Assembly (NCBI GenBank): GCA_014190295.1 | Contig: BJGF01000007.1 | Span: 1-33,881, forward strand | Source of the DNA: Actinomycetes bacterium | Lineage (GTDB): Bacteria > Actinomycetota > Acidimicrobiia > Acidimicrobiales > Ilumatobacteraceae | Direction: 5' to 3' | Length of the DNA stretch: 33,881 bases | In this document: in pieces, positions 22,684 through 24,324 of the stretch | Position numbering within the stretch: the first letter of the stretch is position 1 | How the letters are laid out: every line of letters begins with the position of its first letter | Position numbers and translations under genes: made by a program | Notes under the pieces: model-generated | Database searches by the model: none | The model's input: the letters and a program-made list of their open reading frames with translations, nothing else | Told to the model about the DNA's origin: nothing

Positions 22684-23487
22684 TCAGCTTCGAAATTTAT
22701 TCTCGAGCCATGTCTGTAATTGCGGGCCAATATCTTTGCGACCAAGTGCGATCTCTATTACGGCACGCAACAGGCCCATCGGTGTACCCGTGTCGTATCT
22801 AGTGATATCGCTGACGATACCAAGTAATTGACTTTCAACTGCTAGCAGGGCAAGTGCGTCAGTTAACTGCAACTCGCCATTCGGGCTTGGTTTAATTGCG
22901 GCTAGATGATCAAAAACATTGGGCGCCAAAACATAGCGACCGATAATCACTAGGTCACTGACGATTTCGGCAGGTTTTGGCTTTTCAATTATTTGATTGA
23001 TCGTGACTATGTTTTCGCTGGATGTATTACTGGCTCCGACATTGCCATAACTTGAAACTTCAGTTGTCGGAACTTTTTTTAATCCAATACTGCTCTTGTT
23101 CGTCTTTTCATAAAGTTTGACGAGTGCTTTAATTAGCGAAGAGTCGCCCATTATCTCATCGGGCAACATAACTGCAAACGGCTCACCCGCAACTGCATCA
23201 CGTGCGCAACTAATCGCATGACAAAGACCAAGTGGTGAATCTTGATAGACGACGCTGACGGCAACTTTGTCTGTGCTGGCAGATGCCGCATACATCTCGA
23301 TTGACGGCTTGGATCGACTGGTGACGATCACGACTCGTTCAATACCCGCCGCAGCCGCTTCGTCGATCACGAACTGAATCGCCGGAGTGTCATATATAGG
23401 TAGCAATTCTTTTGGTATCGCACGCGTGGCTGGAAGGAACCTGGTGCCCATTCCGGCCGCAGGAATCACCGCAGTGCGTACAGCCAC
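22684..23487 (-). CDS. galU: UTP-glucose-1-phosphate uridylyltransferase GalU
   Basis: This 267-residue nucleotidyltransferase has the GalU motif AAGMGTRFLPATRAIPKELL at the N-terminus, followed by DTPAIQFVIDEAAAAGIERV, a central ISCARDAVAGEPFAVMLPDE and a C-terminal KPKPAEIVSDLVIIGRYV. It makes UDP-glucose from glucose-1-phosphate and UTP for cell-wall and exopolysaccharide synthesis. The start GTG at 23487 is preceded by TATGAT (23499-23494), at a distance that fits a leaderless transcript. It diverges from the FmdB/Ruc-like gene across only 26 bp. In Actinobacteria galU commonly sits between an FmdB-like gene and glp, as here. Confidence 0.9.
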   Translation of the reverse strand: MAVRTAVIPAAGMGTRFLPATRAIPKELLPIYDTPAIQFVIDEAAAAGIERVVIVTSRSKPSIEMYAASASTDKVAVSVVYQDSPLGLCHAISCARDAVAGEPFAVMLPDEIMGDSSLIKALVKLYEKTNKSSIGLKKVPTTEVSSYGNVGASNTSSENIVTINQIIEKPKPAEIVSDLVIIGRYVLAPNVFDHLAAIKPSPNGELQLTDALALLAVESQLLGIVSDITRYDTGTPMGLLRAVIEIALGRKDIGPQLQTWLENKFRS

Positions 23488-23493
23488 ACATTC

Positions 23494-23503
23494 ATCATAG
23501 AAT
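23494..23503. promoter_or_regulatory. Overlapping divergent -10 boxes between galU and the FmdB-like gene
   Basis: On the minus strand TATGAT (23499-23494) lies 6 nt before the galU GTG. On the plus strand TAGAAT (23498-23503) lies 10 nt before the ATG at 23514. The two -10-like boxes overlap by two bases, so the promoters would compete and any -35 regions would lie in the opposite gene. Neither gene has a clear Shine-Dalgarno sequence. Confidence 0.4.
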
Positions 23504-23513
23504 CAAAAGCCCT

Positions 23514-23891
23514 ATGCCCACTTATGTTTACAAGTTCATTGACTCAGGTGAGACCATCGAGGTGCACCAAGCGTTTACTGACGACGCACTGACCGAGGCA
23601 TCGCACCCATCAGATGGCAAGATGCGCCCCGTCAAAAAAGTCTTCACACCAGTTGGCATCACTTTCAAGGGTGGTGGGTTCTACAAAAATGACAGCGCGG
23701 CGGGTTCTAAAACTGGGGCTAGTTCAAATTCTGGTTCTGCAGCAAACTCGACTGCTGCTGCAACAAGCACGCAAAGCACTAGTACGACCTCGACAGATAG
23801 CGAAAAGACTGCCAGCAAGCCTGAAACAAAAACCGAAACAAAGAGCGAGACGAAAACCGAAACGAAAGCTAGTCCAGCCAAAAGCGAATAA
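23514..23891 (+). CDS. FmdB/Ruc-like protein without zinc-ribbon cysteines
   Basis: This 125-residue protein starts MPTYVYKFIDSGETIEVHQA and continues FTDDALTEASHPSDGKM and VKKVFTPVGITFKGGGFYKN, which aligns with FmdB-type zinc ribbons. In the family, CxxCG occupies the position of FIDSGE and a second CxxC the position of ASHPSDG. Neither cysteine pair is present, and the protein has no Cys at all. Residues 61-125 are a disordered tail, first Ser/Ala/Thr-rich and then with ETK/SETK repeats. The Mycobacterium homologue Rv0991c (Ruc) is a redox-regulated chaperone whose cysteines bind zinc and sense oxidation, and its gene is near galU as here. This homologue cannot use that switch. ATG at 23514 starts the family match. 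Confidence 0.75.
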   Translation: MPTYVYKFIDSGETIEVHQAFTDDALTEASHPSDGKMRPVKKVFTPVGITFKGGGFYKNDSAAGSKTGASSNSGSAANSTAAATSTQSTSTTSTDSEKTASKPETKTETKSETKTETKASPAKSE

Positions 23892-23913: not shown

Positions 23914-24324
23914 ATGCGAACAAAACTCATTGACCAGTGGCATGCGTTGTGTCGCGATGCTTCACGACAACGAGTCGTAATTATTTTGCTCTCAGTATTG
24001 AGTGCGTTGTTTTATTTAGTAACTGCACTTTCTTTTTCTCCTGACACGAGAGTTACCGCGGTTCAAGATTCGCGCTACGAAATACCCGTCGGGTTTCGTG
24101 CAGTTGCGATGCAAAGTGTTGGGCCACTGCCACAACTTCGCCCGGGCGATTACGTCGACGTGATCATTGATGCGGCAGTTGTGCTTGATCGAGTTTTAGT
24201 GATTGATGTTTCTTTGCAATCTGGTCACACCGAAACCGTGGTGCTTGCGGTGCAATCTAATCAAGCCCCACAAATCGCTAATGCTTCAGCGTTAGGCATA
24301 GTGACGCTAGTTCTAGTCGGCTAG
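23914..24324 (+). CDS. Membrane-anchored SAF-domain protein (CpaB-like)
   Basis: This protein of about 136 residues has a basic N-terminus, one membrane helix (about residues 21-43) and an extracytoplasmic part. RYEIPVGFRAVAM and LRPGDYVDVIID match the start and end of a SAF domain, as in CpaB/RcpC pilus-assembly proteins, whose SAF domains may bind polysaccharide. ATG at 23914 is the first start in frame with the helix; upstream codons of this frame lie within the FmdB-like gene. It follows that gene by 22 nt on the same strand. A SAF gene after the FmdB-like gene is common in Actinobacteria. Its stop TAG lies in a CTAG repeat. Confidence 0.7.
   Translation: MRTKLIDQWHALCRDASRQRVVIILLSVLSALFYLVTALSFSPDTRVTAVQDSRYEIPVGFRAVAMQSVGPLPQLRPGDYVDVIIDAAVVLDRVLVIDVSLQSGHTETVVLAVQSNQAPQIANASALGIVTLVLVG

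Follow-up and report, generated by a model that had tools for sequence, protein, structure and literature searches.

A cysteine-less variant of the Ruc/FmdB zinc-ribbon protein throughout the Ilumatobacteraceae

The gene at 23514-23891 (+) of the window, the 33,881-nucleotide stretch of DNA that was analysed, encodes a Ruc/FmdB-type protein of 125 residues in which there is no cysteine. Judged by profile homology and gene order, the protein is an orthologue of Ruc by descent. Relatives of the protein become active when oxidation removes the zinc atom that their cysteines hold. The loss of its zinc ligands is a feature of the whole family, one of aquatic actinobacteria, to which the window belongs, and the gene is under purifying selection. 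The best reading of the protein, and a probable one on the present analysis, is that of a redox-uncoupled, zinc-free Ruc chaperone.

The gene, its reading frame and the predicted fold

The ORF has an ATG start at 23514, with the stop codon following the 125th residue. The N-terminal domain, derived from a zinc ribbon, spans residues 1-61 (23514-23696, +), as delimited by the AF2 model and by conservation. Alignments place F8-I-D-S-G-E13 (23535-23552, +) where the CxxC-G of the first zinc knuckle is expected, and H31-P-S-D-G35 (23604-23618, +) in place of the CPxCG of the second. Compared with the Cys-bearing orthologues of the order, the hairpin of the second knuckle has about two extra residues on either side. 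In the family the four ligand positions are occupied by F, S/T, H and D/T/S, of which a single one is a good zinc ligand.

Past ASHPSDG the protein continues with FTPVGITFKGGGFY and then an ETK-rich tail. The most conserved segment, FTPVGITFKGGGFYKND (residues 44-60; 23643-23693, +), is common to the Cys-bearing orthologues and has low confidence in the AF2 model. It is followed by a low-complexity tail of 64 residues, rich in S, T, A, G, K and E (23697-23888, +), which is predicted from composition and AF2 to be disordered. This hydrophilic C-terminal tail is of the Ruc type, and it resembles the tails of the Cys-bearing orthologues in length and composition. An earlier note on this DNA had described FIDSGE and ASHPSDG at the sites of the two CxxC pairs, a complete lack of Cys, the core and the disordered tail; the ORF translation, alignments, composition and AF2 model agree with it on each point.

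In the AF2 model residues 1-40 form, with high confidence, a ribbon that includes no metal; the strands are at 3-8, 14-18, 28-30 and 37-43/44. The mean pLDDT is about 90 over these 40 residues and falls thereafter; for the domain modelled alone, pLDDT is 80-88. Foldseek returned no PDB match below E 0.001 (best E 0.57). The non-significant matches include the zinc ribbons of RbpA, Rpo12 and the MCM N-terminal domain, which are consistent in kind. No convincing solved homologue was found by sequence.

The start codons of ruc and of the divergent galU-like nucleotidyltransferase gene (22684-23487, -) are only 26 bp apart. The leader contains TAGAATCAAAAGCCCT (23496-23513, +; 23496-23516 reads TAGAATCAAAAGCCCTATG) and is near-invariant across the genus. 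It holds no CIRCE site and may be a -10 element, in which case the transcript leader would be very short or absent. An in-frame extension from a TTG at 23412 does carry Cys, but it runs antisense through galU and is not conserved, since relatives have stop codons in it at different points. The Cys-less domain is present, ungapped and in the same frame, in 54 homologues. A start or frame error hiding cysteines upstream, which the earlier note named as grounds for rejecting its reading, is thereby excluded, and the gene is not a frame error, a pseudogene or a local oddity.

Downstream lies a genus-conserved gene for an RcpC/CpaB (SAF)-type protein, recognized by profile search (23914-24324, +; start codon chosen by eye). 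At L003 / L092 (G004:C11) the ruc frame reads without a stop into this SAF gene to give 277 aa. This run-on is probably a sequencing frameshift, a real fusion being the alternative.

Descent and extent of the cysteine loss

Homology to FmdB/Ruc over about the first 60 residues, as proposed in the earlier note, is borne out by an hhalign comparison of 34 Cys-less with 11 Cys-bearing sequences (99.8%, E 2.4e-28). The order moaC-moaA-moeA-galU | ruc, for which the galU-like gene (profile search, gene order) serves as orthology anchor, is common to Cys-less and Cys-bearing loci. As the two forms occupy the same slot, they are taken to be the same gene, changed: a Ruc orthologue minus its zinc ligands. 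Profile and synteny together also answer the concern, raised in that note, that the fold might be unrelated to FmdB. The window protein scores 15.6 bits against PF09723 (cut-off 34.4) and 17.4 bits against TIGR02605 (cut-off 31.3). These low single-sequence scores are what models anchored on Cys would be expected to give; the current family models miss Cys-less members. The protein thus has the homologous domain and the genomic slot of a Ruc orthologue, lacks the CxxC...CxxC ligands of an FmdB zinc ribbon, and has no cysteines of its own through which oxidation could activate it. Its most fitting classification is as a Cys-less variant within the FmdB zinc-ribbon kind.

The window comes from a 1.77 Mb MAG and was assigned to the Ilumatobacteraceae by named relatives, many of which are freshwater MAGs, some labelled acIV. 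The earlier note had asked whether the loss is clade-wide, and it is: Cys is absent from the domain in 55/55 family loci read (one truncated by a contig end), whereas the 35 loci sampled from the order's other families all have 3-4 Cys. In a census by DNA pattern, the Cys-less form was found in 187 of 222 family genomes (25/27 genera) and the CxxC form of Ruc in 0/222. Checked locally, the patterns recovered 54/55 Cys-less and 31/35 Cys-bearing loci, with no cross-hits. Some members of the order have incomplete or shifted ligand sets, namely three Cys (L057, L059, L080), CxC spacing (L056), or His for Cys; L057, L059, L080 and L056 are possible intermediate states. Plasmid-borne relatives gave four matches at 44-50% identity.

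The census gave no further Ruc-type gene with Cys in the family; there is only a different, short FmdB-type paralogue. This second protein of about 75 aa (L171; G000:C10:26610-26729) is encoded in the window's genome and in those of many relatives. It shares an FmdB-like start, MPVYEFRC in the paralogue, with the window protein. Unlike the latter, the paralogue keeps CxxC...CxxGH, ends in a GCGSGCGCH tail and lies at a different locus. Its likely zinc ligands indicate that ribbons of this kind are still in use in the clade.

Selection on the Cys-less domain is evident from a median dN/dS of about 0.2 and from the comparison of the window gene with its nearest relative, in which the domain has 8 synonymous and 0 nonsynonymous changes. 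Among the family homologues F8, E13 and P32 are invariant (54/54), H31 and G35 are each present in 53/54, and the KVF-P-VG--FKG-GF-K-D segment has an invariant core.

Cysteine-less forms also occur in a second lineage. A sample of 109 loci from across the phylum contained 102 with 3-5 Cys and seven with none; six of the latter belong to the window's family and one to another, f78, probably of the Thermoleophilia, a guess based on the type of sequence. The relatives in f78 include 19 Cys-less loci (the sample locus counted) and three with one Cys, although these were chosen for low scores, so that their Cys-less share says nothing on frequency. Their sisters keep C-x-x-G-H...CxxC. The f78 Cys-less form also matches by hhalign (99.0%), and both lineages have xP(E/D/S)(T/S/D)G in place of CPxCG, the f78 version being DPETG. 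In a tree built without the knuckle columns the Ilumatobacteraceae form one clade (100/97). A tree constrained to unite the two Cys-less forms is worse by 39.9 log-likelihood units, at an AU p of 0.061 (39 columns); the result favours two origins without proving them. It is probable that f78 lost its Cys separately, as suggested mainly by taxonomy and the Cys-bearing sisters. Two further observations concern f78. One locus (L324, G421) has one Cys; its second knuckle reads SCPTTGQ and its core is altered to FIPRYKGTGFYSTD, another type of replacement. L329 and L330 are Cys-less copies in tandem, about 400 bp apart, in two genomes.

HrcA operators and the proposed function

The 350 bp upstream of each gene were scanned for the HrcA operator CIRCE, TTAGCACTC-N9-GAGTGCTAA. 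It is present in 7 of 54 family loci, from seven Cys-less genera (1-3 mismatches), and in 21/35 Cys-bearing loci of the order (0-4 mismatches). No control window among 87 came below six mismatches, and 3/1760 shuffles had four or fewer. Of 20 f78 loci with no or one Cys, three match a slightly degenerate consensus with 1-2 mismatches, and the others have six or more. The sites in all three groups lie 13-61 bp upstream of the gene. No site was found in the 350 bp upstream of the window's gene. Some genera of the family have retained the operator and others, that of the window among them, have lost it. HrcA is encoded in 94/100 relatives. CIRCE sites are few genome-wide: the single site in the window's genome lies upstream of groES, and most of the others inspected stand before groES, groEL or hrcA. 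That the operators are shared with groES/groEL points to chaperone physiology.

It has been reported that M. tuberculosis ruc is repressed by HrcA, that the Ruc double mutants C8S,C11S and C29S,C32S bind no zinc and in the reduced state suppress the aggregation of luciferase, and that the disordered tail is needed as well (PMC7448276). Beyond this paper, the literature on FmdB-family ribbons yielded nothing useful.

In the proposed mechanism, both knuckles have been exchanged for turn-type segments, F-x-D-S/T-G-E and H-P-x-x-G. With turns in these places the ribbon would need no zinc and would fold without metal, and thiol oxidation could not switch it. The protein would then be an always-competent, ATP-independent chaperone that binds clients, its supply being set by expression, under HrcA/heat shock in some genera and HrcA-free in the window's genus. 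The earlier note had offered a constitutively active chaperone or a structural protein. The former appears better supported, because HrcA operators are kept in Cys-less genera and in f78 and because Cys-to-Ser Ruc is active when reduced; the structural reading is without specific support.

The replacements, resembling turn stabilisers, could instead lock the domain in a compact, inactive-like state. The protein would then not be a client-binding chaperone in either state, and the FKGxGFY segment and tail would serve another role, such as docking to GroEL/DnaK, RNA polymerase or the ribosome. The turn-forming character of DSGE, HPSDG and DPETG is in keeping with this, as is the confident metal-free ribbon over residues 1-40. 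Residues 44-60, the most conserved, lie outside the confident fold and look like a binding segment, and there is the weak, non-significant structural likeness to the RbpA and Rpo12 ribbons. Nevertheless, this alternative is rather unlikely, as the HrcA operators are held in common with groES/groEL and Ruc is active in each of the two reported Cys-pair mutants (PMC7448276). Retention of zinc or another metal through H31 and D/E residues is quite improbable. H31 and several acidic residues are nearly invariant in the family, but the ligand positions there supply one good ligand only, and those of f78 contain neither His nor Cys.

The small genomes of the window's genus and the missing CIRCE site would suit a decaying gene that lost its function and has since drifted, in plankton with small genomes. 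This is largely refuted by the dN/dS of about 0.2 and the 8 synonymous against 0 nonsynonymous changes in the closest pair, and the gene is retained in most family genomes, including those of 4-6 Mb, leaving decay very hard to credit. Even less credence is due to an unrelated protein or a start or frame artefact; the sub-threshold Pfam and NCBIfam scores might suggest one, but it is refuted by the profile E of 2.4e-28, the synteny and the shared frame of the 54 homologues.

The redox-uncoupled chaperone thus stays the preferred reading. A wider proposal may also hold, and is put forward more tentatively: that two lineages independently made a zinc- and redox-gated chaperone zinc-free and always on by means of beta turns, with HrcA control kept in part of each. 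If so, the zinc/redox switch would be a regulatory layer that can be taken off a more ancient chaperone, itself controlled by HrcA and working through the FKGxGFY segment and the disordered tail. With a clade-wide Cys-less Ruc that has kept HrcA operators in several genera, the question whether this chaperone family needs redox gating or has it as an optional extra can be put directly to the test, and natural zinc-free ribbons become available for comparison with their zinc-bound sisters.

Comparison with known systems

The window protein aligns across the whole of the TIGR02605 model, but it reaches only about half of the curated cut-offs of TIGR02605 and PF09723 (Zn_ribbon_8) and lacks the CxxC...CxxC for which the family is named. 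The f78 protein (MPIYEYRRPDGTTFE...DPETGVPVERV) is similar to it in the loss of all four ligands, the xP(E/D)TG second knuckle and, in some loci, an upstream CIRCE. It differs in its first knuckle, changed to RRPDGT, in a hairpin of the same length as in its own Cys-bearing sisters, and in belonging to a separate lineage.

Hsp33 is an analogue of Ruc, a redox chaperone with four zinc cysteines, and is unrelated in sequence to the window protein. As a candidate replacement redox chaperone it is absent from 100/100 relatives, Cys-bearing and Cys-less alike. The closest system is Ruc (Rv0991c) of M. tuberculosis, a redox-regulated chaperone whose family is described as having four cysteines (PMC7448276). 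The two share the type of N-terminal domain and the hydrophilic disordered tail, and several Cys-less relatives share the HrcA operator. In contrast to Ruc, the window protein, being without Cys, has no such zinc site and no disulfide switch, and its genus has no HrcA site at the gene. The natural Cys-less protein would thus resemble a Cys-to-Ser mutant of Ruc that has been fixed by evolution.
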